Positions 2,227 through 31,116 of a stretch of DNA of 38,947 nt are shown here, one piece after another. The number at the start of each line of letters is the position of its first letter. Within the stretch, counting starts at the first letter, position 1. The stretch covers positions 1-38,947 of the forward strand of contig DATLFN010000014.1 of assembly GCA_035540975.1 (NCBI GenBank), in the 5' to 3' direction. The stretch is from Acidimicrobiales bacterium. GTDB lineage: Bacteria > Actinomycetota > Acidimicrobiia > Acidimicrobiales > GCA-2861595. The notes below the pieces were generated by a model. It saw only the letters and a list, made by a program, of their open reading frames with translations. It did no database searches and was not told the origin of the DNA. The translations under genes were made by a program, and so were the position numbers.

Positions 2227-2694
2227 CAGCTGGGCCAGCAGGCTCTCGACCACCGAGACCCGCCCGCCCGTGCGCTCCCAGTCGTCACCGATACGGCGGT
2301 GGTCGACCAGGCCCCACGCGTCGGGCCCGATGCCGAGGGAGCCGGTGGCGGCGGCCTGGAGGGGTGACGGCTCCGTCTCGTCGCCGTACGCCGGGTACGC
2401 CTCCAGCCCGTCCCACAGGGCCTCCGGCGGCGCCACGGGCGGCTCGCCCCGGGCCAGCGCCAGGGCGACGCCGGGGAGCAGGTCGTCGGTGCCGGCCCCC
2501 CCGGGCCGTCGGAAGCCCGCCACCGGGTGGAGGCGCCACTCGAGGGCGATGCCGCCCGGGCCGTCGTCGCGGATCCACACCTGGGAGCCGTTGACGTAGG
2601 CGTCCAGGGGCTCCCCGAACCTCTCGTCGAGCGCCACGACGAGCGCCGGCGAGATGCGCCACACGCACGTAGGGGTGAGCCGGACCGGCGCCAC
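2215..2694 (-). CDS. Hypothetical protein, 159 aa
   Basis: A minus-strand frame whose C-terminal ~155 residues read like a genuine soluble protein, with mixed composition and segments such as RISPALVVALDERFG, VNGSQVWIRDD and DAWGLVDHRRIGDDWERTG. Further upstream the same frame is low-complexity Ala/Pro/Arg that mirrors the opposite gene. I therefore place the start at the GTG at 2694; a later GTG in the CVWR segment is an alternative. I recognise no family, signal peptide or membrane segment. It is convergent with the Nudix gene (12-base overlap) and divergent from the metallopeptidase gene, leaving about 80 bases for both promoters. Confidence 0.6.
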   Translation of the reverse strand: MAPVRLTPTCVWRISPALVVALDERFGEPLDAYVNGSQVWIRDDGPGGIALEWRLHPVAGFRRPGGAGTDDLLPGVALALARGEPPVAPPEALWDGLEAYPAYGDETEPSPLQAAATGSLGIGPDAWGLVDHRRIGDDWERTGGRVSVVESLLAQLSAG

Positions 2695-2776
2695 GGGGCG
2701 ACACGCTACGGCGGCGGCGCGACCGTCCGGCGCCGCCGCGCCCGCTGGGCGCCGCCGCACCTGCCAGCATGGGCCC

Positions 2777-4297
2777 GTGCGCCGACTCGCCACCCTCCTC
2801 GCCGCCGCCGTCCTCGCCGGCGCCTGCGGCGGCGACGGGGACGACTCGGCGGGGCCGGCGCCGTCGGCCTCCGTCACCACGGCGACGGCGCCGGCGGAGG
2901 CGACGAGCACCACCGCCGCGGCTCCCGCCACCACGGCACCGTCCAGCGCGGCGACGTCCACGGCGGCGCCGGGGCCCGGCGGGACGGCGGCGGCCCCGAC
3001 GACGCGGGCGCCGGCCGCGGCCGGGCCCGGGCGGCCGGCGGCGTCGTGCCCGGCCATCCCGGCCCGGCCGGCGCCGCGGGAGGACCGCTCGCGCTACACC
3101 CTGCGCATCGACGTGAAGCCCGACCGGAACGTGGTGGAGGGCGACCTCACGGTGCGCTTCACGCCCGACCTGCCCACCGACCAGCTGGTGTTCCGCCTGT
3201 GGGCCAACTCCCCGCGCACGGCGGCGGCCGGCGCCCGCCTCGACGTCGCCGGCGTGTTCGTCGGCGGCCAGCGGGTGGACGCCGTGCAGCCCGACGCCAC
3301 CACGGTGGTGGCCCGTCCCGGGCCGCTGGCGCCGGGCCGGGCGATCGACGTGAACGTGCCCTGGAGGCTGACGCTGCCGGGCACGGTGTCGGACCGGATC
3401 TCGCGCACCGGCGACGCCATCCGCCTCGGCTCGTTCTTCCCGATCCTGGCCTGGGAGCCGGGAGTGGGCTGGGCCGTGCAGCCGGCTACCTCCGGCTTCG
3501 CCGAGGCGTCGATGACCCCGCAGGCCGACTTCGCCGCCACCGTGTCCGTGCCGCCCGGCTTCGACGTGCTGGCCACCGGGGTCAACGACGGGAGCGGCCG
3601 GTGGACGGCGACGGCGGTGAACGACTTCGCCATGTCGGTCGGGCACTTCTCGATGGCGTCGGCCACCGCCAATGCCCCCCAGCCCGTGCAGGTGACCGTA
3701 GGCGTCCACCAGGGGATCGCCGAGTCGCCCGCCGCCTACGCCTCGCGCATCGTGCGTGCCCTGGAGGACTTCGGGCGGCGTTTCGGTCCCTACCCGTGGC
3801 CGACCTACACGATGGCCGTCACGCCGCAGCTCGGCGGCGGCATCGAGTACCCGATGCACGTCCTCCAGGGCCCCGGCACGATGGGGCGCACCACGTCGCA
3901 CGAGGTGGCCCACATGTGGTTCTACGGACTCGTCGCCAACGACCAGGGGCGCGACCCGTGGATGGACGAGGGCCTCGCCACCTATGCCGAGGGGCGCTTC
4001 GAGGGCAGCCTCGAGACCATCAGGTCGACGCCGGTCCCGGCGGCCGGACGGGGCCGCGCCGGCGAGCCGATGAGGTACTGGGAGCCGCGGCAGTCCATCT
4101 ACTACCGAAGTGTCTACACCCAGGGAGCGCAGGCGGTCGCCGCCCTCGGTGATGCCGAGCTGGTCGACTGCGCGCTGCGCGTCTACGTCGCCCGCAAGGG
4201 CTACCGCGTGGCGCGGCCGGGCGACTTCATCGAGGCGGCGAAGGCGGTGTTCCCCGACGCGGCGGAGGTCCTCGGGCGCTACGGGATCCGCTCATAG
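2777..4297 (+). CDS. M1-family zinc metallopeptidase, predicted lipoprotein
   Basis: A 506-residue protein. The GTG at 2777 is chosen because it gives a clean lipoprotein signal (VRRLATLLAAAVLAGAC, lipid-anchored Cys17). A Thr/Ala/Pro-rich linker to about residue 95 would space the enzyme from the membrane. The catalytic part shows the M1 signatures: an exopeptidase-type motif GGGIEYP (cf. GAMEN), HEVAH (His375, Glu376, His379) and the third zinc ligand Glu398 in PWMDEG. The protein is shorter than pepN-type aminopeptidases (~850 aa) and lacks the long C-terminal helical domain. It should act outside the cell on peptides. It is the last gene before the lanthipeptide operon on the same strand, 277 bases upstream. 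M1-type proteases are, as I recall, reported to remove class III lanthipeptide leaders, so it is a candidate maturation protease. Its role here is inferred. Confidence 0.87.
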   Translation: MRRLATLLAAAVLAGACGGDGDDSAGPAPSASVTTATAPAEATSTTAAAPATTAPSSAATSTAAPGPGGTAAAPTTRAPAAAGPGRPAASCPAIPARPAPREDRSRYTLRIDVKPDRNVVEGDLTVRFTPDLPTDQLVFRLWANSPRTAAAGARLDVAGVFVGGQRVDAVQPDATTVVARPGPLAPGRAIDVNVPWRLTLPGTVSDRISRTGDAIRLGSFFPILAWEPGVGWAVQPATSGFAEASMTPQADFAATVSVPPGFDVLATGVNDGSGRWTATAVNDFAMSVGHFSMASATANAPQPVQVTVGVHQGIAESPAAYASRIVRALEDFGRRFGPYPWPTYTMAVTPQLGGGIEYPMHVLQGPGTMGRTTSHEVAHMWFYGLVANDQGRDPWMDEGLATYAEGRFEGSLETIRSTPVPAAGRGRAGEPMRYWEPRQSIYYRSVYTQGAQAVAALGDAELVDCALRVYVARKGYRVARPGDFIEAAKAVFPDAAEVLGRYGIRS

Positions 4298-4574: not shown

Positions 4575-7193
4575 GTGGACCACGGCTACGACGAGTTCTG
4601 CCTGGCGGACCCGTACTTCTACGACGCCTGCACCGTCACCAGGGGCGACGACGTCGACTTCCCCGTCGCCGACCGGCCGGTGGCCCCGGGCTGGAAGCGG
4701 ACGCCGTCGGACGACTGGCTCGTCTACTGGCCGGAGGACGCGGACGTCCCGCCCCAGGGCTGGAAGGTGCACGTCTCGGCGTGCCTCGGCAACGCCGAGG
4801 ACGTCCTCGGCGTGGTGTTCGACTACTGCACGCAGCGGCGGGTCCCGTTCAAGTTCGTCCGCAGCCTTCAGTGCGTGCTGCTGCGCAACGTCAAGTACGC
4901 CGACCGCGGGGCGAGCGGCAAGTTCGTCACCATCTACCCGTCGGACGACACCCAGCTGGAGACGATCCTCACCGAGCTCGGGGCGGCCCTGGAGGGCCAG
5001 CCCGGCCCGTACATCCTGAGCGACCTCCGCTTCGGGAACGGCCCGCTCTACGTCCGCTACGGGGGCTTCGCCGAGCGGTGGTGCGTCGGGGCGAACGGCC
5101 TCCTGGAGCTGGGCGTCGCCGACCCCGAGGGCCGGCTGGTGCCCGATCATCGAGGCCCCACGTTCAGCCCGCCGCCGTGGGCCACGCTGCCGGCGTTCCT
5201 GGAGCCGCACCTGGCGGCTCGGGCCGACGCCACCGTCCAGGAGCTTCCCTACCGCATCGAGCGGGCCATCCACTTCTCCAACGGCGGCGGCCTCTACGTG
5301 GGCGTGGACGAGCGCGACGGGGACCAGGTCGTGCTCAAGGAGGCGAGGCCGCACGCCGGCCTCGACACGTCCGGGGCCGACGCCGTCGAGCGGCTGCTCC
5401 ACGAGCAGCGCATGCTCGAGCGGCTGGCCGGCCTCGACGTGGTGCCGGCCGTGCGCGACTCCTTCACGATCGCCGACCACCGGTTCCTGGTCCTCGACCA
5501 CGTCGACGGCGTCTCGCTCAACTCGACGGTGGTCGACCGGTACCCGCTGCTCACCGACCGGGTCGACACCGACGAGGTGGCCGCGTACACCCGCTGGGCC
5601 CTCGACGTGGTGGCCGCCCTGGAGGGGGCGGTGGCGGCCCTCCACCGCCGCGGGGTCGTGTTCGGCGACCTCCACCCGGGCAACGTGCTGGTCCGCCCCG
5701 ACGGGCGCGTCGTGCTCGTCGACTTCGAGATGGCGAGCGATGTGGCGGACCACCGCCGGCCCACCCTCGCCGAGCCCGGCTTCGCGCCGCCGGCGGGCTG
5801 CGTCGGGCGCGACGTCGACCTCCACTCCCTGGCCGTGATGCGGGTGTTCCTGTTCCTCCCGCTCACCAACCTGTTCGCCCTCGACCGGGCCAAGGTGCGG
5901 CAGTTCGCGGTGGAGATCCCGCGGCTGTTCCCGGTCCCGGCCGACTACGTCGCCTCGGTGGTGCCCACGATCGCGCCCCCCGCGTTCTTCCCGGCGACCG
6001 AGGCCCCTCCGGCCGTCGAGCCCACGGCCGCGGGTTGGCGGGCGGCACGCGAGTCGATAACCGCGGCGATCCTGGCCAGCGCCACACCCGGGCGCGACGA
6101 CCGCCTGTTCCCGGGTGACGTCAAGCAGTTCCAGACGGGCGGGCTGAACCTCGCCCATGGTGCCGCCGGCGTCCTGTACGCCCTGGCGGAGACGGGGGCG
6201 GGCCGGTTCCCCGACCACGAGCAGTGGCTGCTCGACCGGGCCGTCCACCCCGCACCGGGCGCCCGCCTCGGCCTCTACGACGGCCTCCACGGCGTGGCCT
6301 TCGTGCTGGACCGGCTGGGCCATCGCGCCGAGGCGCAGAAGGTCCTCGACATCTGCACGGACGAGCTCACCGGCCGCGAGGACCGGCTCGGGCTGGACCT
6401 GTTCGGCGGGCTGGCCGGGATAGGCCTGAACCTCGCCCACTTCGCCGCCGCCCACGGGGACCCGGCCCTCGCCGAGGCGGCCCGGGCGGTGGCCGGGGTG
6501 GTGGCCGACCGACTGGGCGACGAGGACGACGTCGCGCCGGTCAGCGGCGGGGCCAACCCCTACGCCGGGCTGGTACGCGGCTCGTCGGGCCCGGCCCTGT
6601 TCTTCCTGCGCCTCTACGAGCAGTCGGGCGACGCCGCCCTTCTCGACCTGGCCGCCGCCGCCCTCCGCCAGGACCTGCGGCGCTGCGTCACCCGCGACGA
6701 CGGCGCCCTCGAGGTCGACGAGGGATGGCGCACCATGCCGTACATCGCCGACGGGAGCGCCGGGATCGGCATGGTCCTGGAGGAGTACCTGCGCCACCGG
6801 CCCGACCAGCGGTTCGAGCAGGCGGCGGCCGGCGCCCGGCGCACGGCGGCCACCGGCTTCTTCATCGAGCCGGGCCTGTTCTACGGCCGCGCCGGCATGA
6901 TCCTCTCCCTGTCACGCACGGCCGGTCGCGGCGACGGCGCCGTCGACGCCGCGGTGGCGGAGCACGTCCGCCGGCTGTCGTGGCACGCCATGGGCTACCA
7001 GGGGCATCTCGCCTTCCCGGGCGAGCAGCTCATGCGCCTCTCGATGGACCTGGCGACGGGAACGGCCGGCGTGCTGCTGGCCCTCGGCGCCGCCCTTCAC
7101 GATTCCCCCGTCCACCTCCCCTTCCTCGGCCTCGGCGGCCGGGTGGAGCCGGAGGTGGCGGCCACGGTGTCTACCAATCAGGGAAGGAGGTGA
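4575..7193 (+). CDS. Class III lanthipeptide synthetase LanKC (RamC/AmfT-like)
   Basis: An 872-residue trifunctional enzyme that dehydrates Ser/Thr of the precursor and forms (methyl)lanthionine or labionin rings. Order: N-terminal lyase domain (~1-200); Ser/Thr-kinase-like domain (~225-500) with Lys255 in VVLKEA, catalytic loop GDLHPGN (Asp365, Asn370) and DFE (Asp383) in place of DFG; C-terminal LanC-like cyclase (~515-870). The cyclase lacks the Zn ligands: where Zn-type LanC has WCxG the sequence is LFYGRAG (residues 768-774), and no CHG motif is present. This makes it class III rather than class IV. GTG start with a strong GGAGG 8-12 bases upstream. It is the first gene of the operon, and its stop lies inside the ribosome-binding site of the precursor gene. 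The length is typical for RamC/AmfT proteins. Confidence 0.95.
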   Translation: MDHGYDEFCLADPYFYDACTVTRGDDVDFPVADRPVAPGWKRTPSDDWLVYWPEDADVPPQGWKVHVSACLGNAEDVLGVVFDYCTQRRVPFKFVRSLQCVLLRNVKYADRGASGKFVTIYPSDDTQLETILTELGAALEGQPGPYILSDLRFGNGPLYVRYGGFAERWCVGANGLLELGVADPEGRLVPDHRGPTFSPPPWATLPAFLEPHLAARADATVQELPYRIERAIHFSNGGGLYVGVDERDGDQVVLKEARPHAGLDTSGADAVERLLHEQRMLERLAGLDVVPAVRDSFTIADHRFLVLDHVDGVSLNSTVVDRYPLLTDRVDTDEVAAYTRWALDVVAALEGAVAALHRRGVVFGDLHPGNVLVRPDGRVVLVDFEMASDVADHRRPTLAEPGFAPPAGCVGRDVDLHSLAVMRVFLFLPLTNLFALDRAKVRQFAVEIPRLFPVPADYVASVVPTIAPPAFFPATEAPPAVEPTAAGWRAARESITAAILASATPGRDDRLFPGDVKQFQTGGLNLAHGAAGVLYALAETGAGRFPDHEQWLLDRAVHPAPGARLGLYDGLHGVAFVLDRLGHRAEAQKVLDICTDELTGREDRLGLDLFGGLAGIGLNLAHFAAAHGDPALAEAARAVAGVVADRLGDEDDVAPVSGGANPYAGLVRGSSGPALFFLRLYEQSGDAALLDLAAAALRQDLRRCVTRDDGALEVDEGWRTMPYIADGSAGIGMVLEEYLRHRPDQRFEQAAAGARRTAATGFFIEPGLFYGRAGMILSLSRTAGRGDGAVDAAVAEHVRRLSWHAMGYQGHLAFPGEQLMRLSMDLATGTAGVLLALGAALHDSPVHLPFLGLGGRVEPEVAATVSTNQGRR
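7182..7193 (+). promoter_or_regulatory. Exceptionally strong Shine-Dalgarno for the precursor gene
   Basis: GGAAGGAGGTGATTGC just before the ATG at 7200 contains AAGGAGGTGAT, an almost full-length complement of the 3' end of 16S rRNA. Its TGA is also the stop codon of lanKC (7191-7193). Ribosomes ending lanKC therefore terminate on the precursor's ribosome-binding site, which favours coupled, high-level translation of the peptide substrate. Confidence 0.85.
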
Positions 7194-7199
7194 TTGCAC

Positions 7200-7340
7200 A
7201 TGGCGATCCTTGACCTGCAGGGTATGGAGCAGAAGCCGTCCGCTGGCGCCATCAAGGGCAAGAGCGGGGCGAGCAAGGGCTGCACGATCGGCGGTGGTGG
7301 TGGTGGCGGCGGCAGCCGTCTGAGCCTTCTCCTCTGCTAG
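7200..7340 (+). CDS. Class III lanthipeptide precursor (SapB/AmfS-like), two ring motifs
   Basis: A 46-residue peptide, too short for usual gene calling. The leader carries ILDLQGMEQ (residues 3-11), matching the (I/L)xDLQ recognition helix of RamS/AmfS-type leaders that binds LanKC. The core region has S22-G-A-S25-K-G-C28 and S39-R-L-S42-L-L-L-C46. Both fit the Ser-x2-Ser-x(2-5)-Cys pattern from which LanKC enzymes make labionin or lanthionine. The second closely resembles the SRASLLLC of SapB. Eight successive Gly residues (31-38) separate the two, and the peptide ends on the ring cysteine. It lies between lanKC and two ABC exporters, exactly as ramS does. The stop is doubled (TAG TAG). By analogy the product would be an amphiphilic, surfactant-like or morphogenetic peptide; that role is inferred. 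Confidence 0.93.
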   Translation: MAILDLQGMEQKPSAGAIKGKSGASKGCTIGGGGGGGGSRLSLLLC

Positions 7341-7358
7341 TAGCAGCACTGAGCGCCG

Positions 7359-7396
7359 CGGGGCAGCCGCCCGGCACGGTTCGGGCGGCCGCCCCG
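7359..7396 (+). terminator. Strong hairpin after the precursor gene (attenuator or mRNA stabiliser)
   Basis: CGGGGCAGCCGCCCG (7359-7373) pairs with CGGGCGGCCGCCCCG (7382-7396): 15 positions with a single A-C mismatch around an 8-base loop. No T-tract follows, and the exporter genes continue in the same direction. It is therefore more likely a partial terminator or a 3'-end stabiliser that raises precursor mRNA relative to the exporter genes. Confidence 0.7.
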
Positions 7397-7458
7397 AGGT
7401 GCAGACGACCGACGTTGTTCTGCGGGCGCCGCCCGCCGGGACGAGCAGGACGGAAAAC

Positions 7459-9276
7459 GTGAGCGACGAGCACAGCGACGACGCGGCGCGCGCGGACCAC
7501 CGCGCCGCCGACCGGCTGCTCGTGCGCGCCTCACGCCGCGGGGGGATGGCGCTGGGCGCGCTGGCGCTCACGTCCTTGGGGATGGCCGCCGCCGAGACGG
7601 CGCTGCCCGCCGTGCTCGCCCGGGCGGTGGACACCATCGTGGCCGGCGACGGGGGCTCGGGGGCCTGGGTGCTGTGGGGCGGCGTCCTCGTCGCAGCGCT
7701 GGTGGCGTTCGACCTCGTCGACGACCTGGCGGCGGGCGCCACCACGGCGCGCTCGACGGCGTGGCTGCGCCACTCGCTCCTGCGCCACGTGCTCGACCTC
7801 GGACCGAGGGCGGCGCGGCTGGCGCCGGGCGACGTCGCCAGCCGGATGGTCGCCAACACGGCGGCGGCCGGGAAGGCGGCCCCCGACGTGGTGCGGGCGG
7901 TGGCCAACCTGGTGCCGTCGGTGGGCGGCATCGTGGCGTTGGCGCTGATCGACCCGTGGTTGTGCGTCACCTTCCTCGCCGGCCTTCCCCTGCTCGTGGT
8001 CCTCCTGCGGGCGTTCGTGCGTGACGCCTCGTCGATGGCCAGCGGGTACCTGGAGACGCAGGCCGGGATCGCCGGCCGACTGGTGGGCGCCCTCTCCGGC
8101 ATCCGCACCATCGCCGCCGCCGGTGCCGTCGAGCGGGAGGTGCGCCGAGTCCTCCGCCCGCTGCCCGAGCTGCGCCGCTACGGGATGGGCATGTGGAGGG
8201 CCCAGCTGCGGCTGTCGACGCAGGACGCGCTGCTGCTCCCGCTGCTCGAGGTGCTGGTTCTCGCCGTCGCCGGGTTCCGCCTGGCCGGCGGCCACCTCAG
8301 CCCCGGCGAGCTGCTCGCCGCCGGCCAGTACGTCCAGTTGGCGTCCAACATCGGCGCAGCCGGTGCGACCGCCGACCGCCTGGCGCGGGCCCGGGCGGGG
8401 GCCGCCCGGGTCGCCGACGTGCTCGACCGGGAGCCGGTCGCCTACGGCGACGGCGCGCTCGCCGACGGAGACGGCTCGCTGGAGATGCGGGACGTCACCG
8501 TGCGGGCCGGCGGCCGGGTCGTGCTCGACGGGCTGACCCTGACCGTCCCCGGCGGCGCGCTGGCCGCCGTCGTCGGCACCTCGGGCTCGGGCAAGTCGCT
8601 GCTGGCCGCCCTCGCCGGCCGCCTGGCCGACCCCGACGAGGGCAGCGTCCTGCTCGACGGCGTCGACCTGCGCTCGCTGACCCGACACGAGCTGCGCCGG
8701 GCCGTCTCCTACGGCTTCGCCCGGCCGGCGCTCCTGGGCGAGACGGTGGGCGAGGCCATCGCCTTCGGCCATCACGAGCCGTCGGTGGAGGAGGTGGTCG
8801 CCGCCGCGTGCGGCGCCCAGGCCGACCCGTTCATCCGCCACCTGCCCCAGGGGTACGCCACCCCGGTCGCCGAGGCGCCGATGTCGGGCGGCGAGGCCCA
8901 GCGGGTGGGGCTGGCCCGGACGTTCGCCCACGCCGGCCGCCTCGTGGTCCTCGACGACGTGGCCGCCAGCCTCGACACGGTCACCGAGCACCAGATCGCC
9001 CGCGTGCTCACCGGGCGGTTGGCTGGGCGGACGCGCCTCGTCGTCGCCCACCGCGCCTCCACGGCGGCCCGAGCCGACGTCGTCGTGTGGCTCGAGGGCG
9101 GGAGGGTGAGGGCGGTGCGGCCGCACCAGGTGCTCTGGGACGATCCCGCCTACCGGGCCGTGTTCGGCGCCGAGCAACCGGGTGGGGCGCCCGACGAGCC
9201 GTTCGCCGCCGGTGCGGCGGGAGACGGCCGTTCCGCCGCTCCCGAGCCCGTCGAGGCCGCCCGGGGGGCGGCATGA
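7459..9276 (+). CDS. ABC exporter subunit 1 (RamA/AmfB-like), permease-ATPase half transporter with degenerate site
   Basis: A 605-residue half transporter if the GTG at 7459 (after GGACGG) is the start; an in-frame GTG at 7399 would add 20 residues. An N-terminal membrane domain (~30-330) is followed by an ATPase domain: Walker A GTSGSGKS, signature MSGGE (475-479), Walker B VVLDD (Asp499-Asp500) and H-loop VVAHR. The catalytic Glu after Walker B is Asp, as in the degenerate half of heterodimeric ABC exporters. It should pair with the product of the next gene and export the modified lanthipeptide. It has no peptidase (C39) domain, so leader removal must be done by another protein. Its stop overlaps the next start (ATGA). 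Confidence 0.9.
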   Translation: MSDEHSDDAARADHRAADRLLVRASRRGGMALGALALTSLGMAAAETALPAVLARAVDTIVAGDGGSGAWVLWGGVLVAALVAFDLVDDLAAGATTARSTAWLRHSLLRHVLDLGPRAARLAPGDVASRMVANTAAAGKAAPDVVRAVANLVPSVGGIVALALIDPWLCVTFLAGLPLLVVLLRAFVRDASSMASGYLETQAGIAGRLVGALSGIRTIAAAGAVEREVRRVLRPLPELRRYGMGMWRAQLRLSTQDALLLPLLEVLVLAVAGFRLAGGHLSPGELLAAGQYVQLASNIGAAGATADRLARARAGAARVADVLDREPVAYGDGALADGDGSLEMRDVTVRAGGRVVLDGLTLTVPGGALAAVVGTSGSGKSLLAALAGRLADPDEGSVLLDGVDLRSLTRHELRRAVSYGFARPALLGETVGEAIAFGHHEPSVEEVVAAACGAQADPFIRHLPQGYATPVAEAPMSGGEAQRVGLARTFAHAGRLVVLDDVAASLDTVTEHQIARVLTGRLAGRTRLVVAHRASTAARADVVVWLEGGRVRAVRPHQVLWDDPAYRAVFGAEQPGGAPDEPFAAGAAGDGRSAAPEPVEAARGAA

Positions 9277-11009
9277 CGGCGCCCGCCGTGGCTCGCCGCC
9301 ACGAGGGCCGGCGCCTCCTGGCCCGATCGCTGTCGGGCCGCCGCCGGGTGGTGGCGGCACTGCTCGCCTGGTCGACCGTCCAGGCCCTTCCCGCCTTCCT
9401 CAGCGGGCGGCTCCTGGCGCAGGCGGTGGACGACGGGTTCCTCGCCGGGCGCGCCGGGACGGGGTTCGCCTGGCTGGGAGCGCTCGGCGTGGCCGTCGTT
9501 GTCGGCGCCTGGGGCACCCGGGAGACCTACCTCCGCCTGGCGTCGCTGGTGGAGCCGTTCCGCGACGAGCTGGTGGAGGTCGTGGTGACGGGCGCTCTGC
9601 GCCGGGCGGCGGTGTCGGGGCGGCCGGCGGACAGCGGTGGCGTGGCCCGTCTCACCCAGCACGTGGAGATCCTGCGCGAGGCCTACGCCGGCGTCCTCAT
9701 GACGGTGCAGGGGTTCGCCATCACGGCGGGAGGCGCCGTCCTCGGCCTCTTCGGCCTCCTGCCCGCCGCCCTCGTCCTCGTCCTGCCGCCGCTCGTCGCC
9801 GGCCTCGCCGTCTTCGCTGCTGCGCTGCGCCCGATGGCCGCCCGCCAGCGAGCGTCCATCCTGGCCGACGAGGCCATCTCGGAGTCGGCGTCGGCCGTGG
9901 CCGACGGGCTGCGCGACGTCGTCGCCTGTGGCGGCGAGGGCGCCGTCGAATCCACCGTCGGCCGTCACGTCGACGCCCAGGCGGGGGCGACGGTGGCCCT
10001 CGCCCGGACGACGGCCGTGGGTACGGGGGCGGTGGCCGTCGGCGGGTGGCTGCCCGTCATCCTGCTGCTGGCCGCCGGCCCGTCGCTGGTGCGGGACGGT
10101 GCCACGACGGGCGAGCTGATCGGCGCGCTGACCTACGTGCTGTACGGCATCCACCCCGCGCTCCAGACCCTCGTGCGCCAGCTGGGCGGCGCCGGCCTGT
10201 GGCTGTTCGTGACGCTCGACCGGGTGGTCGAGGCGACGGCCGGCGACCCGCCCGGCCCGGCGCCGTCCGACGCGCCCGGTGGGCGGGCGCCGGGCCCCGG
10301 GTCGGCGGACCTCCTCCTGGACGACGTGACGTTCCGCTACGGCGCGTCCCCCGACCCGGTGATCCGCCACCTCGACCTCGAGGTCCAGGAGGGGGAGCAC
10401 CTGGCCATCGTGGGGCCGAGCGGCGTGGGCAAGTCCACGCTCGCCGGGCTCATGGCCGGCCTGCTCGTCCCCCAGTCCGGAGAGGTGCTGCTCGGCGGGG
10501 TGAAGGCGGCCGACGTCGTCCCCGGGGAGCTGGCCCGGTGGCGGGCGCTCATCCCCCAGGAGGCCTACGTCTTCCCGGGGACGGTCCGGGAGAACGTGAC
10601 CTACCTGCGGGGCGGCGCGGGCGACGGCGAGATCGACGCCGTGGTGGACCTCCTCGGCGCCCGCCCGCTGGTCGACCGCCTGGGCGGGCTCGACGGCGGC
10701 GTCGACGGCGGCGCCCTCTCGGCCGGTGAGCGCCAGCTCCTCACCCTCGTGCGGGCCTACCTCTCGCCCGCCCCGGTGGTGGTGCTGGACGAGGCGACGT
10801 GCCACCTCGACCCGGCCGCCGAGGCCCGGGTGGAGCTGGCGTTCGCCCGCCGTCCCGGCACGCTGATCGTGATCGCCCACCGCATCAGCTCGGCGCTGCG
10901 GGCCCGGCGGGTGCTGGTCCTCGACGGCGCCGGCACGGCGGCGGGCACCCACGACGAGCTCCTCGACGGCTCCGTGCTCTACCGGGACCTCGTCGGCCAC
11001 TGGGGCTGA
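9273..11009 (+). CDS. ABC exporter subunit 2 (RamB/AmfA-like), catalytically canonical half
   Basis: A 578-residue permease-ATPase half transporter. Its ATG overlaps the stop of subunit 1 by four bases. Membrane segments occupy ~25-300 and the ATPase domain ~340-575: Walker A GPSGVGKST, signature LSAGE (482-486), Walker B VVLDEAT (Asp506, Glu507) and H-loop IVIAHR. The catalytic Glu is present here but the signature has Ala for Gly. Together with the Asp in subunit 1, one composite ATP site is normal and the other degenerate, which is typical of an obligate heterodimer. It is the last gene of the lanthipeptide operon, followed by a convergent gene. No regulator or protease gene follows, unlike ramR in Streptomyces. 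Confidence 0.9.
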   Translation: MTAPAVARRHEGRRLLARSLSGRRRVVAALLAWSTVQALPAFLSGRLLAQAVDDGFLAGRAGTGFAWLGALGVAVVVGAWGTRETYLRLASLVEPFRDELVEVVVTGALRRAAVSGRPADSGGVARLTQHVEILREAYAGVLMTVQGFAITAGGAVLGLFGLLPAALVLVLPPLVAGLAVFAAALRPMAARQRASILADEAISESASAVADGLRDVVACGGEGAVESTVGRHVDAQAGATVALARTTAVGTGAVAVGGWLPVILLLAAGPSLVRDGATTGELIGALTYVLYGIHPALQTLVRQLGGAGLWLFVTLDRVVEATAGDPPGPAPSDAPGGRAPGPGSADLLLDDVTFRYGASPDPVIRHLDLEVQEGEHLAIVGPSGVGKSTLAGLMAGLLVPQSGEVLLGGVKAADVVPGELARWRALIPQEAYVFPGTVRENVTYLRGGAGDGEIDAVVDLLGARPLVDRLGGLDGGVDGGALSAGERQLLTLVRAYLSPAPVVVLDEATCHLDPAAEARVELAFARRPGTLIVIAHRISSALRARRVLVLDGAGTAAGTHDELLDGSVLYRDLVGHWG

Positions 11010-11037: not shown

Positions 11038-11913
11038 CTACTCGGGCGACTGGTCCCGCAGGAAGCGCTCGACCTCGCCGGCCAGGTCGGGGGGTGGGGG
11101 CCACGGCAGCTCGTCGGGCTCCTCGTCGTCGCCGCCGTCGCCGTCGCCCAGCTCCTCGAGGCGGGCGACGTAGCCGGCCACGTCGTCGTCCTCCGACACC
11201 ACCTCGCTCACCTGGCGCTCGTAGGCGGCGGCCGCCACCTCGAGGTCGAGCGTCTCGATCCTCGCCCCCAGCAGGGACGCCGTGCGCTCGACCAGGGCGA
11301 GGGCGGCCTTGGGCGACGGCGTGCCGGACACGTAGTGGGGGACGCCCGCCCACAGCGACGCCGAGGGGATCTCGGCCCCGGCCAGGGCGTCGTGGAGGAC
11401 CCCGACGATGCCCGTCGGCCCCTGGTAGCGGGACCGCTCCAGGCCGAGCCGGCGCTCCAGCTCGGGGTCGGCGGCCGTGCCCGTGACGCGCACGGGCATG
11501 GTGTGCGCCACCTCGGCTCCCAGCCCGCCCAGGGTGATGGCGATCTCGACGCCCAGCGACCGGGCCACCTCCACCAGCGCGCCCGTGTACGTCCGCCACC
11601 GCAGCTGCGGCTCGGCGGCGTGGAGGAACACGACGTCGTGGGCGGTGCCGACAGGCGAGGCGGCGCTCAGCTCGCCGTCCGGCCAGCTGACCTCGCGCCG
11701 CGTCCCGTCGCGAAGGGCGACCCGCGGCCGGGTGACCGTGAAGTCGTAGAACTCCTCGGGGTCGATGGTGGCGAACTGGCGGGCGGCCCACTGGGCGGCG
11801 AGGTAGCGGGCGGCCAGCGAGGCGCACTCGCCGGCGTCGTTCCAGCCCTCGAACGCCGCCACCAGCACGGGCCGGCGCAGGCGCGGGCGGTCGTCCCAGC
11901 GCACGGGGTCCAC
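11038..11913 (-). CDS. PAC2-family protein
   Basis: A 291-residue protein with the PAC2 family pattern: AFEGWNDAGE near the N-terminus, a central LGGLGAEVAHTMPV segment and PSASLWAGVPHYV followed by SPKAALALVER. PAC2 proteins are ATP-grasp-unrelated relatives of proteasome assembly chaperones and are common in actinobacteria, where the true role is not established. The last ~45 residues are acidic and proline-rich (DGDGGDDEEPDELPWPPPP), then a short helix. GTG start at 11913. It is convergent with the exporter gene and divergent from the helicase, whose start is 64 bases away, so the two may share a promoter region. Confidence 0.85.
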   Translation of the reverse strand: MDPVRWDDRPRLRRPVLVAAFEGWNDAGECASLAARYLAAQWAARQFATIDPEEFYDFTVTRPRVALRDGTRREVSWPDGELSAASPVGTAHDVVFLHAAEPQLRWRTYTGALVEVARSLGVEIAITLGGLGAEVAHTMPVRVTGTAADPELERRLGLERSRYQGPTGIVGVLHDALAGAEIPSASLWAGVPHYVSGTPSPKAALALVERTASLLGARIETLDLEVAAAAYERQVSEVVSEDDDVAGYVARLEELGDGDGGDDEEPDELPWPPPPDLAGEVERFLRDQSPE

Positions 11914-24195: not shown

Positions 24196-25968
24196 TCAAG
24201 GCGTGTTGTTCGCCGTCGTGACGCCGGTGCTGAGGCTGTCCTGGGTGATCGCCCGTTCGGCACCGTCGAACGAGTTGCCGGTCACCGAGACGCCGTGCGA
24301 GTCCACCAGCCCGACGCCCGAGCTGGTGCCGCAGCCGCCGAAGACGAAGCTGACCGTGTTGCCCGACACCTCGACGCTCTTGGAGCGGATGAAGTCGAAG
24401 GCGTTGCCGAGCGTCATGAACCGGTTGTTCGTGATCACGTAGCCCGAGCGGTAGCGACCGGCCGCGGCGGTCTCGGCGTGGACGGGGGGCCGGCAGCTCA
24501 CCAGGGGGCCCACCATCGTGTTGGCGTCCAGCGATATCGGGCCCACGTTGGGATCGACCCCAGCGCCCACGTTGGCCAGCACCGAGAAGCGGACCGGCCC
24601 GAAGGTGTTGCCCACGATCCGGATGTCCTTGCCCTTCGCCTCGTCGAAGTCCAGCTCGATGTCGACCGCGTTCATGTTCACGTCGCCGAGGTACGAGGAC
24701 TCGAGGAGCAACCCTTCCACGTTGGTCGGCGACACCCCTTGGCGGCCGCTGCGGGCGAAGTGCGCGTTGCGGATGGTGATGTCCCGAGCCGGGTCGGTCG
24801 TGTAGGGGTTGAACCGCTCGTCGTGGTGCACGGCCACGAAGTCACCGTAGACGTCGTAGGCCTTGACGTTCTCGAGCACTGCGCCCTGGGTGCCCTCGAT
24901 CGAGTACCCGTGCTGATACTCGTACGCCCCGTCGTAGGACCCCTCGAAGATCCCGGCCTTGGGGTTGACACCGCGAACGGTCATGTTCTTGAGCGTGATC
25001 CGGCTGCCGCCTTGGATGCGCCAGTTCCGCCGGCCGATATCGCCCTGCGTCACCGCCTTGAAGGTGGCGCCGTTTCCGTCGACCGTGAGCTCCGTGCGGT
25101 CGCTCAGCACGATGGTGGCGTCCTGGCCGTAGCATCCGCCGGCCGCGAACCGGGCGACCGCGTTGTCGGGAACGCTGGCCAGCCAGGCGCGGATCTCGGC
25201 GTCCACCGGCCGGGAGCAGTCAGCGGCGATCGTGGCGGGCGCGTCGTACGTCACCGGGACGGGGGCTGGAGAAGGCGCGGAGGCGCAGTCCCCGACCCTC
25301 GCGACCTCGATGCCCGACACCATGGGCTGGTCGACCTTCTTGACGAAGCCGAGGATCAGGCTGCCGTCGTTCACGGCCACGTCGAAGCTGCGGGCGAGGG
25401 CCGTCTCCTTGCCCACCGCTGCCGCGATGTCGAGGTTGGCGAGCTTCGTCTGCCACTCGGCCGTCACGCTGAACACCCGCTGCCCCGCCGCGTACCAGTA
25501 CGTCTCGGCGAAGTGGAGCGTCACCCGGTAGGTCCCGGCACACGGGACGGCCACGCTGTAGCTGCTCATGGCCCAGCGGTGCTTCTGGTAGAGCGGGCCG
25601 GCGTCCGTCCCGGAGATGGGCGCCGGAGTCGGCGACGCCGGCGCTCCGCCCACGTAGCCATGGTCGGGTGACCAGGTGTGACCCGCCGGGTCGGTGTACT
25701 GCGAAGCTCCGCCGGTGTTGATGCGGGTCACGAACGGCGGTGCCGGGGGCGGAGGCGCCGTCGTGGTCGTCGTGGTGGTGGGGGCTAGGGTCGTCGTCGT
25801 GGTCGCGGGCGCAGTGGTCGTCGTGGTGGCCGTCGTGGTCGTCGTGGTCACGGGCCGTGGCTTCCGTGGACGGGCGGCTGCGACGTCGGGAAAGGCTGCG
25901 ACGACGACGAGGAGGAAGCTGACCACGGCGGCCCAGGTGGTGGCCGAGACGCGCAGGGATCGAGACAT
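24196..25968 (-). CDS. Secreted malectin-like + right-handed beta-helix protein (paralogue B)
   Basis: A 590-residue protein. The ATG at 25968 is chosen because it gives a clean signal peptide (MSRSLRVSATTWAAVVSF..., ending near AAA/RPRKP) with GAGGAG 12-17 bases upstream; the longer open frame above it is not coding. A Thr-rich linker (~40-75), a malectin-like domain (~80-225: RINTGGASQYTD, VTLHFAETYWY, RVFSVTAEW) and a beta-helix domain (~250-590) follow. The helix closely matches paralogue A, including VEGLLLESSYLGDVNMNAVDIE and the HHDER loop. The Thr runs are candidates for O-glycosylation and could span the cell wall. Secretion and domain order are clear; enzymatic activity is not. Confidence 0.87.
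   Translation of the reverse strand: MSRSLRVSATTWAAVVSFLLVVVAAFPDVAAARPRKPRPVTTTTTTATTTTTAPATTTTTLAPTTTTTTTAPPPPAPPFVTRINTGGASQYTDPAGHTWSPDHGYVGGAPASPTPAPISGTDAGPLYQKHRWAMSSYSVAVPCAGTYRVTLHFAETYWYAAGQRVFSVTAEWQTKLANLDIAAAVGKETALARSFDVAVNDGSLILGFVKKVDQPMVSGIEVARVGDCASAPSPAPVPVTYDAPATIAADCSRPVDAEIRAWLASVPDNAVARFAAGGCYGQDATIVLSDRTELTVDGNGATFKAVTQGDIGRRNWRIQGGSRITLKNMTVRGVNPKAGIFEGSYDGAYEYQHGYSIEGTQGAVLENVKAYDVYGDFVAVHHDERFNPYTTDPARDITIRNAHFARSGRQGVSPTNVEGLLLESSYLGDVNMNAVDIELDFDEAKGKDIRIVGNTFGPVRFSVLANVGAGVDPNVGPISLDANTMVGPLVSCRPPVHAETAAAGRYRSGYVITNNRFMTLGNAFDFIRSKSVEVSGNTVSFVFGGCGTSSGVGLVDSHGVSVTGNSFDGAERAITQDSLSTGVTTANNTP
25759..25850. repeat. Low-complexity Thr-codon tract in paralogue B
   Basis: Plus-strand runs of GTCGTGGTC/GTCGTCGTGG encode, on the minus strand, clusters of consecutive Thr in the linker after the signal peptide. 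Short-unit repeats of this kind can expand or contract by slippage, so linker length may vary among strains. Confidence 0.8.
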
Positions 25969-26201
25969 GGGACGAAGGGCTCCTCGGGGACGGCCGGACG
26001 GGTTCACCGCGGAGTGCGTTGCGAGACGGCCGGCCAACGGCCGGCGTCGTGCCGCCCGCGCCGGCCTGAGTGCGGCGGTGACCGGTCCAGGAGTGCTGGA
26101 TTCAGTGAACTGAGGACTGTGTCGACCGCTTCGTCGGCGCCCTTGAGGGGACATCTGCGAGCGGTAGGTGCACCCGCGCCCGCCGGTTCCCCCGCCGTCC
26201 G
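25969..26201. promoter_or_regulatory. Divergent intergenic region, paralogue B / flippase
   Basis: A 233-base divergent gap without a credible gene. It includes a GGCCGGCCAACGGCCGG partial inverted repeat (~26030-26046) and a small operator-like palindrome TCAGT-GA-ACTGA (26102-26113). It must carry the promoters for the minus-strand beta-helix gene and the plus-strand flippase operon. No clear -35/-10 pair was recognised. Confidence 0.4.
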
Positions 26202-27596
26202 GTGACGCCACCGATGGGCGTGCCTGCATCCCAGGGCGGAAGTGCGACCCTGCTGCACGACAGCGGCCTGCTCCTCGCCGCTCGCGCCGCGCAGACCCTG
26301 TTCGGGGCCGTCACCTTCGTCGTACTGACCCGCCGCCTCGGGCCCGCCGGGTTCGGCGAGGTGGTGACGGCATCGGGGTTCGTCAGCGTCGTCGGGGGCG
26401 TCGTCGGGACGGCGTTGAGCGACGCCGCGGTGACCGCCGGAGGCGATCTGCCGCGGTTCGGCAGGGTCACCGCAGCGGTCGCGCTCGTTTCCGGCGTCGC
26501 CGTCGGGCTGGCCTGGGCCGCCAGCGGCGGTGATGGCGACGGCCTGGTGGCGGCGCTCGGAGGGGCGCTGTTCGTGTCGGCATCGGCGGCGACGGCAGGG
26601 AGGACGGCGCTTGCTCGGGTGGGGGGCGACGCCTGGCAGCTGGCCCTCCTGCAGGCGGGCGGCGCCCTGGCCACGCTGGCGGTGGTCGGCTCCCTCGCCT
26701 CCGCAGGCGTGAGCCGCTGGGGACCGTACGTCCTCGCCTACGCGGCGCAACCGGCCGCGCTCCTCCTCCTCCGGCGGTCGCCCCGAGGAGCCGCCGGGCC
26801 GCCGACGGCAACGACGCTGCGGGACCTCGTCCGGACGGCCGGCCCCTTCCTGTTGTCACAGGCGATATGGCCGCTTCTCGGGCTGACGAACATCGTGGTG
26901 CTCCGGGCGCTCAGTGGCCCGGCCACCGTCGGCCGCTACGGGGCGATGGTGCGGATCCTCGACCTCGTCGGGCTCGTCGGGCCTCTCCTCGGCACGTTCG
27001 CGCTGCCGGCCTTCGCTCGCCTCCAGCGGACGCCGGCACGCCGGTCCGAGATCTCGCGGCTCAATCTCACCATCGCCGTGGCCGCAACGCTGCCCGTCGT
27101 CGCGGGGATGCATCTGGCGTGGGTCGGCTGGAGGCTCGCCTATCCCGACCTGCGATTTCCCGTGACGGCGTTCGCGGTCCTGGCCGCCGCGTACGGGCTC
27201 AACAGCGCGTGCGGCCTACCGGACCGAGTGCTGCAGAGCGGGGGAGCCGCCCCCGTCGTCGCCCGTGCCGCGTCAGCGGCCCTCGCCGCCGTTGCCGTCC
27301 TGAGCCCTCTCCTCGTGTGGCGGGCGTCGCTCGTCGGCGCCGGCGTAGCGCTCCTCCTCGCCGTGGGCGGGGTCAACGTCGCCATGCTCGTGGCCGCGCG
27401 GCCAACCCGCGCCGCCCTGGCCGGCCACGCGGTGATCGCTGCCGTCGTCGCGGGTGGCGCCTGCGCCGTGGCCTCCGGGTGGGCGACGGACTCCGCCGTC
27501 AAGTCGGGGCTGCTCGTCGTGGCGTCGGTGGTGCCGCTCGTGGTCGGCGTCGTGTCGGTCGACCGCTGGCATCGCCGCGCGTGGGCGTCCCCATGA
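26202..27596 (+). CDS. Wzx-type polysaccharide flippase (MATE/MOP superfamily)
   Basis: A 464-residue protein (from the GTG at 26202; the ATG at 26214 would remove four residues) with about 12-14 hydrophobic helices and the start typical of the MOP superfamily: LLLAARAAQTLFGAVTFVVLTRRLGPAGFGEV. Later the segment FLLSQAIWPLLGLTNIVVLRALSGPATVGRYGAM marks the second half-repeat. These transporters flip undecaprenyl-linked oligosaccharide repeat units to the outer face of the membrane. It is followed, with an ATGA overlap, by a glycosyltransferase, so the two are coupled. Sequence does not tell which glycan it exports, but its place among the glycosyltransferases fits the repeat unit of this locus. 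Confidence 0.85.
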   Translation: MTPPMGVPASQGGSATLLHDSGLLLAARAAQTLFGAVTFVVLTRRLGPAGFGEVVTASGFVSVVGGVVGTALSDAAVTAGGDLPRFGRVTAAVALVSGVAVGLAWAASGGDGDGLVAALGGALFVSASAATAGRTALARVGGDAWQLALLQAGGALATLAVVGSLASAGVSRWGPYVLAYAAQPAALLLLRRSPRGAAGPPTATTLRDLVRTAGPFLLSQAIWPLLGLTNIVVLRALSGPATVGRYGAMVRILDLVGLVGPLLGTFALPAFARLQRTPARRSEISRLNLTIAVAATLPVVAGMHLAWVGWRLAYPDLRFPVTAFAVLAAAYGLNSACGLPDRVLQSGGAAPVVARAASAALAAVAVLSPLLVWRASLVGAGVALLLAVGGVNVAMLVAARPTRAALAGHAVIAAVVAGGACAVASGWATDSAVKSGLLVVASVVPLVVGVVSVDRWHRRAWASP

Positions 27597-28609
27597 GGTT
27601 GGCGTTGATCCTCCCCGCGCAGATCGAGGGCTGGGGTGGTGTGCAGAGGTTCGGCGCCTGCCTCGAGCCGGCGCTCGCATCGATCGCCGAGGTGTCGGCC
27701 TACCGGCTCCATCCCGCTCCGGGGGCGTCGCGGCTGGCAGCGCTCGTCACCGGTGTGCGCGACCTCGGTCGTGACCACCGCCGCCAGCACTTCGACGCCG
27801 TCGTCAGCACGTTCCACTGGCCACCGCGCCTGCTCGGCGTGCCCATGGTCGGCGTGGTCCACGACCTGCGACGGCGGGCAGGGGCCCGGAGCGGGTCGCT
27901 TGCCGCCCACCTGGAGCGAGCGGTCCTCCGGACATGGGACCTCGTGCTCGTCCCGACGGAACACGTGCGTGACGAGGTCGCGTCCTTCGTCGGCGAGCGA
28001 AGGATCGCGGTCATAGGGGAGGGGACCGACCACCTCGACCACCTTGCGCCGCCGCCCGCCGAACGCCGCCTGGTCGTCGTGCTCGGCGGGCGGGCCCCGC
28101 ACAAGCGGGTCGAGCTCGGTGTCCGGGCGGCCGCCGAGGCGGTGGCGCGGCTCGACGCCGAGGGCGTGGTGCTGGGCGCCGCGCCCCACCTCCGCATGGG
28201 CCCGAGGATCCGCGTCCTCGAGGTTCCTGCCGACGAGGAGATCGCCGAGGTGCTCAGCCGTGCCCGCGTGGTGCTCGCCCCGAGCCGGTACGAGGGCTTC
28301 GGCCTGGCCGCCGGCGAAGCCCTCCGCCTCGGTGCCCCCGTCGTCTTCGCGGCGGACGGACCGCTCGGCGGACTCGTCGGCAGCGGCGGCCTACCCTCGG
28401 CGCCGTCGGCGTCGGCCATGGCTGACGCCACGGTGGCGGCGTGGAGACAACACGACGCGCTGAGCGTCGCAGCCCGCGACGCAGTCCGCCGGCTGACCTG
28501 GGACGCGACTGCCCGGCGGATCGTCCGAGAAGTCGGGTTTCTCGTCCAATATCCGCCCTTGCATGCCCGAAAAACGGTTCGCGGTCTTTTCCGTTTGCGT
28601 CCACGGTGA
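27593..28609 (+). CDS. Family 4 glycosyltransferase (GT-B)
   Basis: A 338-residue protein. The ATG overlaps the flippase stop. The N-terminal Rossmann-type half starts LALILPAQIEGWGGVQRF, where the GG loop is typical of GT4 acceptor domains. The C-terminal donor domain shows VVVLGGRAPHKRVELGVRA and APSRYEGFGLAAGEALRLGAPVV, whose E-x7-E (EGFGLAAGE) binds the nucleotide-sugar. It should act on the cytoplasmic face, adding a sugar to the lipid-linked repeat unit. The enzyme is a little shorter than usual (~370). No signal peptide or membrane helix. The following gene begins 49 bases downstream with its own strong ribosome site. Confidence 0.88.
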   Translation: MRLALILPAQIEGWGGVQRFGACLEPALASIAEVSAYRLHPAPGASRLAALVTGVRDLGRDHRRQHFDAVVSTFHWPPRLLGVPMVGVVHDLRRRAGARSGSLAAHLERAVLRTWDLVLVPTEHVRDEVASFVGERRIAVIGEGTDHLDHLAPPPAERRLVVVLGGRAPHKRVELGVRAAAEAVARLDAEGVVLGAAPHLRMGPRIRVLEVPADEEIAEVLSRARVVLAPSRYEGFGLAAGEALRLGAPVVFAADGPLGGLVGSGGLPSAPSASAMADATVAAWRQHDALSVAARDAVRRLTWDATARRIVREVGFLVQYPPLHARKTVRGLFRLRPR

Positions 28610-28658
28610 GACACACTGGCAGGGACCGACCGTGCTGTCCGGATACAGGGAGGTCTCA

Positions 28659-30236
28659 ATGGGCCGCGGGAACCACGCCACGTCCGGACCTCAGACGTCC
28701 CCATGCCCGCGCCGGAGACGGCTGCGCTGGAGCCTGCCGGTCCTCCTGGCGACGGTCGCGGCGGGCCTCGCCGGCGCCGATACCGCCGCCGCTGGGACGA
28801 CCGTCTTCAGCGGGCGGCTCAGCACCGCCAGCCCGACACAGACGTTCACCCTCGTCACGGGCGCCGGAACGCTCGACGCCACGCTGACGTTCTCACGGCT
28901 CCCGAGCGTCACCCTCACCGTGCTCGACGCCTCGGGGGCCGTTCTGGCGGAGCAGACCTCCTCCACCAGCCCGCTGGTGGTGCAGGCACCGGTGGCAGGG
29001 GGAACCCAACAGCTGCGGGTGCGTGGCAACGGCACCTGGCCCGGATCGCCGAAGTTCAGCCTGAGCGTCTCGTATCCCGACACGGCGACCACCACGACGT
29101 CCACCCCGGCCACGACTACCACCACGACCACAACCACGACCACGACCACCACGACCACGACGATGCCGCCGTCGGGGGAGGTCCACACCGTCCCCTCGTC
29201 CATCCCGGCCGACTGCTCGCGCCCCGTCGAGGGGGAGATCATGACGTGGATGCGTTCGGTTCCCGACAACGCGACGCTGCAGTTCGCGGTCGGCGGCTGC
29301 TACGCCCAGGACGACACGATCCTCGTGCGCGACCGGGACGGCCTCGTCATCGACGGCAGAGGCTCGACGTTCCGTGCGGTTACCGTCGGCCACAGTCACC
29401 GCGCCAACTGGCGCTTCGAGTCAGGCGCCGATCTCACGGTTCGGAACATGGTGGTGCAGGGGTCGAACCCGGCGGCGGGGATCACGGGCACGGCGTACTA
29501 CCCGCCCCTCGAGTGGCAGCACGGTTACTCCATCGACGCCGTCCAGGGGATCACGCTGGACGGCGTCGCCGCCTCCGACACCTACGGCGACCTGCTTGGC
29601 GTCCAGTACGACGAGCGCCTCGGGGTGTTCCAGTCGCCGCCCGCCCGCAACGTCACCGTCGTCAACTCCAGGTTCGAGCGCAGCGGCCGTCAGGCGATCG
29701 CGCTGAGCCACGTCGAGGGAGCGCTCATCCAGCGCAACTATATCGGCGACAGCAACATGAACGGCGTGGACGTCGAGCTGAACGACCCGACGGAGAAGGG
29801 GCTCGACATCCGGATCCTCGACAACACGTTCGGCGCCCTGCGATTCTCCATGGTGGCGAATGTGGGGTCCGGGTACGATCCCAACGTCGGGCGGATCACC
29901 GTCGAGCGGAACGTGATGAACGGTCCCCTCGTGACGTGCCGCCCGCCGGTCTACGTCGAGACGCATGACGATCTGTTTCGGACCGGCTACACCGTCCGCG
30001 ACAACCAGATGCTCGCCTACGGTGACGGGCTCGACTTCATCGGCGTCAAGGAGATCGTCGTTTCCGGGAACACGATCAGGTTCACGAACGGCGACTGCGG
30101 CACGCTGGCCGGGGTGGGGCTGGTGAACTCGCACAACGTGTCGGTGGTCGACAACGCCTTCCTCGGCGCCGCCGAGGCGGTGAAGCAGGACGCCAGGACC
30201 ACGAATGTGACCCAGTCCGGGAACCGGCTCTCGTAG
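28659..30236 (+). CDS. Secreted beta-sandwich + right-handed beta-helix protein (paralogue C)
   Basis: A 525-residue protein. The ATG at 28659 follows GGGAGG at 7-base spacing; the open frame above it is leftover. The signal peptide is RRLRWSLPVLLATVAAGLAGA (~18-40). Unlike A and B, residues ~48-140 are not malectin-like. They form a beta-strand-rich module (FSGRLSTASPTQTFTLVTG, PSVTLTVLDASGAVL, GTQQLRVRGNG) resembling pre-peptidase C-terminal-type domains. A tract of ~18 Thr (~145-172) then joins it to a beta-helix (~180-525) homologous to A and B, with the same four cysteines. The loop HHDER of A/B is QYDER here. It is the only copy on the plus strand. Probably surface or extracellular, acting on or binding glycan. 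Confidence 0.85.
   Translation: MGRGNHATSGPQTSPCPRRRRLRWSLPVLLATVAAGLAGADTAAAGTTVFSGRLSTASPTQTFTLVTGAGTLDATLTFSRLPSVTLTVLDASGAVLAEQTSSTSPLVVQAPVAGGTQQLRVRGNGTWPGSPKFSLSVSYPDTATTTTSTPATTTTTTTTTTTTTTTTTMPPSGEVHTVPSSIPADCSRPVEGEIMTWMRSVPDNATLQFAVGGCYAQDDTILVRDRDGLVIDGRGSTFRAVTVGHSHRANWRFESGADLTVRNMVVQGSNPAAGITGTAYYPPLEWQHGYSIDAVQGITLDGVAASDTYGDLLGVQYDERLGVFQSPPARNVTVVNSRFERSGRQAIALSHVEGALIQRNYIGDSNMNGVDVELNDPTEKGLDIRILDNTFGALRFSMVANVGSGYDPNVGRITVERNVMNGPLVTCRPPVYVETHDDLFRTGYTVRDNQMLAYGDGLDFIGVKEIVVSGNTIRFTNGDCGTLAGVGLVNSHNVSVVDNAFLGAAEAVKQDARTTNVTQSGNRLS
29088..29162 (+). repeat. ACC/ACG low-complexity tract encoding poly-Thr
   Basis: Nearly uninterrupted Thr codons in paralogue C (ACC, ACG, ACT and ACA mixed). 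The mix of synonymous codons suggests selection on the Thr run itself, although slippage is still possible. Confidence 0.85.
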
Positions 30237-30262
30237 CCGCGCACCCTTCTCGTCCGCGGCGT

Positions 30263-31051
30263 TCACCGCACGCCACGGAGCGCGTGGCGTGCCCACGTCC
30301 AGGCGGTCGGGTGGCTCCGCAGCTTCGACGGCAGGTCGGCGACCGGCGCCTGCACGGCGAGGGGCTCGCCCGCCAGGGCGCGCCCGGCGACCGAGACGAT
30401 GGCCGGCAGGGCGGCCGCCACGTGCAGGTAGGGGTACGTGGCGAAGGAGTCGCGCGGCGTCACCGCGATCGTTCGCTGCGCGAGGATGCCGCCCGTGTCG
30501 ATCCCGGCGTCGACGAGGTGCACGGTGGAGCCGGCGAGGTCCGGGCGCCCCTCGGCCAGCGCCCAGTACCCGCCGTGCACCCCCCGGTACGCCGGCGTGA
30601 TGCCGGCGTGATAGTTGACCACCGGTGCGGTGAACGTTCGCAACGTCTCCGCCGAGATGATCCGAGTCCCGCAGACGACGACGACCGCTGGCTGAAGGCG
30701 CTCGACGACGGCTCGGGCCGATTGGTCGTTGACCGACGGCACCCGGTGGACCGCATGAAACGGTCCGTCGTCCAGGGAGAACTCCCGCTTGATCTCCTCG
30801 ATCCGCGCCCGCCCGGTCCGCCGGAGCACCGGCACGACGAGCGCCAGGAACAGCGCCTGCCCGAGCACCGTGGCGGCGCCGAGCCGTCGGAGCCGGCGCC
30901 ACAGGAGCCTTGTCCGGGGAACGGGGTCCTCGACGACCACCACCACGTCCGGGAAGTGCGAGCCCAGGCGGTGGTAGACGATCCGGCTGGCGTCACAGTC
31001 TGTGCACAACAGGACGAGCCGACCGCCTGTCGGTCGCGAAGGACCGGCCAT
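30263..31051 (-). CDS. Formyltransferase-family protein, probable sugar N-formyltransferase
   Basis: A 262-residue protein whose second half carries the formyltransferase core: VVNYHAGITPAYRG (Asn146, His148) and STVHLVDAGIDTGGIL (Asp185). These form the Asn-His-Asp catalytic set that uses N10-formyl-tetrahydrofolate. The first ~100 residues (LVLLCTDCDASRIVYHRLG, then a hydrophobic stretch 60-75) are not those of methionyl-tRNA formyltransferase, and the C-terminal OB domain of Fmt is absent. Within a glycan locus that also encodes a DegT aminotransferase, N-formylation of an amino-deoxy sugar nucleotide is the best hypothesis. ATG start. It is convergent with paralogue C (26-base gap) and divergent from the next glycosyltransferase gene. 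Confidence 0.85.
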   Translation of the reverse strand: MAGPSRPTGGRLVLLCTDCDASRIVYHRLGSHFPDVVVVVEDPVPRTRLLWRRLRRLGAATVLGQALFLALVVPVLRRTGRARIEEIKREFSLDDGPFHAVHRVPSVNDQSARAVVERLQPAVVVVCGTRIISAETLRTFTAPVVNYHAGITPAYRGVHGGYWALAEGRPDLAGSTVHLVDAGIDTGGILAQRTIAVTPRDSFATYPYLHVAAALPAIVSVAGRALAGEPLAVQAPVADLPSKLRSHPTAWTWARHALRGVR

Positions 31052-31116
31052 GGCGCGGAGTGTACGGGTCGACGGCGCCGCGAGAGGGGCGCCGCCGCGA
31101 GGTCGGAGCCGGGACG

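Follow-up and report, generated by a model that had tools for sequence, protein, structure and literature searches.

A probable two-ring SapB/AmfS-type lanthipeptide precursor in an uncultured Acidimicrobiia lineage, with an octaglycine run as a variable spacer

Does the small open reading frame that lies between a lanthionine synthetase gene and two ABC exporter genes encode a two-ring lanthipeptide, and is the run of eight glycines between its rings a design of its own? The sequence-only reading of the window, that is, the whole stretch of 38,947 nucleotides analyzed here, had proposed the two rings and had called a Gly8 hinge between rings unusual among class III cores. Re-reading the letters confirmed the frame as well as the placement of the leader, of SGASKGC at residues 22-28 and of SRLSLLLC at residues 39-46 (Table 1). 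The full peptide is MAILDLQGMEQKPSAGAIKGKSGASKGCTIGGGGGGGGSRLSLLLC. Its leader motif is ILDLQGMEQ, within which ILDLQ agrees with the LxLQ pattern of class III lanthipeptide leaders, and L4, D5, L6 and Q7 were invariant in our alignment A1. The AGGAGG core of the ribosome-binding site (7185-7190) is located 9 nt upstream of the precursor ATG, within the last codons of lanKC, whose stop codon occupies 7191-7193, so that translation of the precursor is likely coupled to that of the synthetase. A chance ORF was ruled out by the family scores, the operon context and the conservation described below. A second precursor copy was also looked for in the genome, and the search gave a single additional match, a weak one (E 0.1).

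Table 1. Features of the precursor locus, numbered from the first letter of the window
Feature	Positions	Strand	Basis
M1-type zinc metallopeptidase, probable lipoprotein, HEVAHMW	2654..4297	+	Pfam Peptidase_M1, 29.5 bits (cut-off 27.7)
lanKC (ramC-like), class III lanthionine synthetase, 872 aa	4575..7193	+	NF038151; Pfam RamC_N, Pkinase, LANC_like
Ribosome-binding site AAGGAGG, inside lanKC 3' end	7184..7190	+	sequence
ramS-like precursor, 46 aa, ATG start, TAG stop	7200..7340	+	ORF; Pfam RamS; NF033212
Predicted leader, residues 1-21, with the ILDLQ synthetase-recognition motif	7200..7262	+	alignment A1
Mini-ring motif SGASKGC, residues 22-28 (Ser-x2-Ser-x2-Cys)	7263..7283	+	S-[GR]-A-S-K-x-C in 15/15 precursors
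Spacer TI + Gly8, residues 29-38	7284..7313	+	codons; 2 to 10 residues in relatives
SapB-like ring motif SRLSLLLC at the C-terminus, residues 39-46	7314..7337	+	invariant S39, S42, L43, L44, C46
Strong RNA hairpin in precursor/exporter gap, without T run	7353..7402	+	folding; paired changes
ramA-like ABC exporter	7459..9276	+	Pfam ABC_membrane, ABC_tran
ramB-like ABC exporter	9273..11009	+	Pfam ABC_tran

The precursor passed the Pfam RamS model (PF19402, 39.3 bits for a cut-off of 24.3) and the NCBIfam SapB_AmfS model (NF033212, 36.5 bits for a cut-off of 25). It is therefore a recognized class III lanthipeptide precursor, whose gene the curated family models would name. A third model, lanthi_III_b (NF038159), resembles the peptide in its full-length match, its two motifs and its Cys as final residue. 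The peptide scored 26.2 for a cut-off of 30, and 32.6 once Gly8 was removed, that is, the cut-off was missed because of the longer spacer; SGASK or SRASK precursors from other genomes (L003, L005, L006 and L007) exceeded it. SapB proper is defined by two Ser-x2-Ser-x3-Cys rings. The first motif here is Ser-x2-Ser-x2-Cys, and the peptide is therefore a divergent member of the RamS family and not a SapB orthologue. It shares with SapB/RamS of Streptomyces coelicolor the LDLQ leader, the ramC-ramS-ramA-ramB order, the S-x-x-S-L-L-L-C motif and a hairpin after ramS. In SapB, however, the SRASLLLC ring comes first and SSLSITTC second, whereas the window peptide has the 7-residue SGASKGC first, the SapB-like motif last and terminal, and the Gly run in between. 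Durhapeptin and rochsin A, class III peptides with two labionins, also carry two SxxSx(n)C motifs, and durhapeptin is likewise accompanied by a LanKC and an ABC transporter, but both durhapeptin motifs are SxxSxxxC and no Gly run separates them (PMC13380574).

The genes around the precursor follow the ramC-ramS-ramA-ramB order, with lanKC upstream and the two exporter genes downstream. The LanKC protein scored 1089.6 bits with NF038151 (cut-off 575) and under the cut-off of the class IV synthetase model. Its kinase motifs are FGDLHPGN at 363 and DFE at 383. The CHG zinc motif is absent, and the only Cys of the cyclase region are 594 and 704; judged from such motif positions, this would fit a class III cyclase that lacks the usual zinc ligands. 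The ramA-like frame is open from 7399, and the GTG at 7459 is its likely start; the ramB-like start overlaps the ramA-like stop. In genomes of the same family (G003) and of the same taxonomic order (G289), as well as in Streptomyces violens, the precursors are likewise flanked by homologues of the synthetase and the two exporters. The ramA-like exporter is 70% identical to its G003 counterpart and 60% to that of S. violens, and the ramB-like exporter is 64% identical to that of G003. The window genome contains three M1-type metallopeptidase genes, of which one immediately precedes lanKC. The protease AplP likewise belongs to the M1 type. Because this neighbor was retained only in G003 among the loci compared, we regard it as a weakly supported candidate for an accessory gene that might trim the leader. 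In G003, a PAC2 gene sits between the M1-type gene and lanKC; in the window, a PAC2 gene is found at 11038-11913 on the opposite strand.

Our searches yielded 14 more precursors of this layout, namely L003 (in G003), L084 (in G289) and 12 from Streptomyces (L005, L006, L007 and L103-L111); L003 and L084 come from the same actinobacterial class as the window. All 15 read S-[GR]-A-S-K-x-C, a spacer, and S-x-x-S-L-L-[LI]-C at the C-terminus, and every ring Ser and Cys, as well as the Ala and Lys of the mini-ring, was invariant. At the ring residues shared by the window, L003 and L084, codons differed only synonymously, as expected under selection on the protein. Thus, the Ser and Cys positions, a change of which in homologues would have told against two modified rings, were retained throughout, and family models, operon context and conservation agree with the proposal of a class III precursor that bears two Ser-x2-Ser-x(2-3)-Cys motifs with the SapB-like motif in second place. 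This ring order is not unique to the window, as the 14 other precursors share it.

We considered that only SRLSLLLC forms a ring and that SGASKGC belongs to the leader or serves as a cleavage or recognition element. In ordinary SapB precursors, a Gly run does sit immediately ahead of the SLLLC ring, close to where leader and core meet, and for this reason GGGGGGGGSRLSLLLC of the window aligns with GGGGGGGGSRASLLLC of L010. A plain leader, however, would have no need of a Cys, none of the 15 precursors deviates at the two Ser or the Cys of SGASKGC, and Actinoplanes precursors (L008 and L011) carry a comparable Ser-x2-Ser-x2-Cys motif, SSSS[AT]GC, as the first of three, ahead of two SapB-type rings where the window has one. 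A single ring therefore appears very unlikely to us, and two rings remain our reading. Three predicted ring motifs were also seen in the SapB-like precursors L013, L016, L022, L032, L050 and L071, in addition to L008 and L011.

How widespread is this precursor type? In the genus of S. violens, 11 of 393 sampled genomes matched at E up to 1e-9, which makes the SGASK type uncommon, not rare, in that genus. Of 390 genomes sampled from the class Acidimicrobiia, 7 had RamC_N, and the genome of the window has it once. A phylum search with alignment A1 returned the window only; the genomes listed were close kin, and G003 and G289 were missed or not drawn. A motif search for precursors in the distant LanKC clusters of G201, G216 and G225 found none. 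The synthetases of these clusters (L095 in G201, L097 in G216, L096 in G225) are distant RamC-type proteins, L096 showing about 33% identity across the N-terminal half, and after each comes another large ORF that contains the segment ALAxExAALPDRRDFAFSxEVGRVAWIDE. When 26 LanKC proteins were placed in a tree, the window grouped with G304, of the same class, with support 95/95; the G304 contig stops at the lanKC 3' end, before any precursor. One branch split five SGASK-type rows from three three-motif rows, unlabeled rows being uncounted. This tree, from which a length filter excluded the G003 protein and in which deeper branches are unresolved, is compatible with a single origin of the SGASK type. 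A literature search on the SGASK motif returned nothing relevant, such sequences being seldom printed in running text.

The spacer behaved differently from the rings. In the window it reads TIGGGGGGGG, with Gly8 at residues 31-38, and Gly8 is the only run of at least seven Gly in the six frames of the window. In the relatives it reads GR (L003), FLGGSAGEGP (L084), GGT (L005 and L006), GGA (L007), GGGA (L103), GGGGF (L104), GA (L105), GGG (L106 and L108), GG (L107), GH (L109), TGGGDAG (L110) and GGGGGG (L111). Its length thus ranges from 2 to 10 residues across the 15 precursors and from 2 to 7 within Streptomyces. The Gly run, which homologues were expected to keep, was therefore not retained, and the octaglycine linker cannot be taken as the defining design of peptides that keep their rings with such spacers. 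Gly8 is the longest between-ring run that we saw, and among 52 distinct precursors near LanKC genes only the window had a between-ring run of at least three Gly, but the later Streptomyces set showed such runs of three to six, with Gly6 at the same place in L111, and runs before the first ring are widespread, at least three Gly being found there in 22 of the 52 precursors and up to eight in L010 and L052. A literature search on polyglycine linkers in class III lanthipeptides returned nothing relevant, which carries little weight given how seldom papers spell sequences out in their text.

Since members of the family often have up to eight Gly directly ahead of the first SapB-type ring, the simplest reading is that Gly8 is an expanded form of a Gly-rich spacer that precedes the hydrophobic ring, and that the mini-ring of this branch lies on the upstream side of that spacer. 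Its codons, GGC(GGT)4(GGC)3, form a repeat open to replication slippage, and this suggests slippage as a route by which the run may have grown. Two rigid ring units joined by a flexible linker would be a plausible picture. A rival reading, in which selection maintains Gly8 as a flexible hinge of set length between two rigid rings, a design of its own, could draw on the at least one Gly found in every spacer of the 15 precursors and on Gly6 in L111 and Gly4 in L104 at the same place. It fits poorly with the mere GR of L003, from the same family, with FLGGSAGEGP in L084, with Streptomyces spacers that already differ from 2 to 7 residues, and with the near-perfect GGT/GGC codon repeat, and we hold it to be distinctly unlikely. 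Our preferred reading, to which we give a probability of about 0.88, is a two-ring class III lanthipeptide precursor of the SapB/AmfS kind in which the Gly run serves as a variable spacer. The evidence supports the ring motifs but gives the octaglycine linker no special status.

By analogy with characterized relatives, LanKC would bind the ILDLQ helix of the leader and would phosphorylate and eliminate Ser22, Ser25, Ser39 and Ser42, after which Cys28 and Cys46 would each close one thioether ring, either lanthionine or labionin. In ThurKC, the LELQL motif of the leader is critical for synthetase binding (PMC10604976). SapB and AmfS contain two lanthionines each and promote aerial growth, and for durhapeptin, with its two SxxSxxxC motifs, there is evidence for two labionins and for the induction of aerial hyphae (PMC13380574). 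We are unsure of the ring type of the first motif, given that two residues, not three, separate its second Ser from Cys. RamA/RamB would then export the product and a peptidase would remove the leader, perhaps an AplP-like protease, as reported for class III leaders in work that PMC8960859 cites.

The product is predicted to be an amphiphile, with SGASKGC as a small, cationic mini-ring at its head and SRLSLLLC as the hydrophobic ring at its end, and would likely act, as SapB does, as a surface-active morphogen or a secreted surfactant. Class III products have varied activities, and with the mini-ring being cationic, the same precursor chemistry might instead serve an antimicrobial lantibiotic. 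In core sequence and operon, however, its nearest relatives belong to the SapB/AmfS type, and we find an antimicrobial role unlikely. A search for chaplin genes in the window genome, run without a positive control, found none, and for this reason the context does not support a SapB-like developmental role.

We tentatively propose, at a little less than even odds, that precursors of the form S-[GR]-A-S-K-x-C, spacer, S-x-x-S-L-L-[LI]-C constitute a chemically distinct and uncharacterized SapB-like branch, in which a conserved cationic mini-ring, a Gly-containing spacer of freely varying length (up to Gly8 in the window) and a hydrophobic terminal ring would make a dumbbell-shaped amphiphile whose rings come in the reverse order to those of SapB. 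A complete SapB-type operon is now placed in an uncultured Acidimicrobiia lineage, a class in which the RamC-type synthetase is itself infrequent (see above). The conserved mini-ring motif offers a ring chemistry and a role that can be tested, and the natural series of spacers is well suited to asking what inter-ring distance LanKC tolerates.

The gap between the precursor and the exporter genes also folds strongly: the segment 7338-7410 gave -45.7 kcal/mol, with a z of -4.3. Each of the 12 SGASK-type sequences that were folded showed the stem, 7 of its 11 consensus pairs having changed on both sides, and ordinary SapB-type precursors also have strong stems downstream. The function of the hairpin may be to curb read-through towards the exporter genes or to shield the precursor mRNA. 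In the window, in L003 and in several Streptomyces relatives, the stem is interrupted once by an A-C mismatch, the flanking pairs of which differ. Further along the window, at 24199-34711, a malectin-domain protein, several glycosyltransferases and a methyltransferase are encoded, probably as a separate polysaccharide locus.
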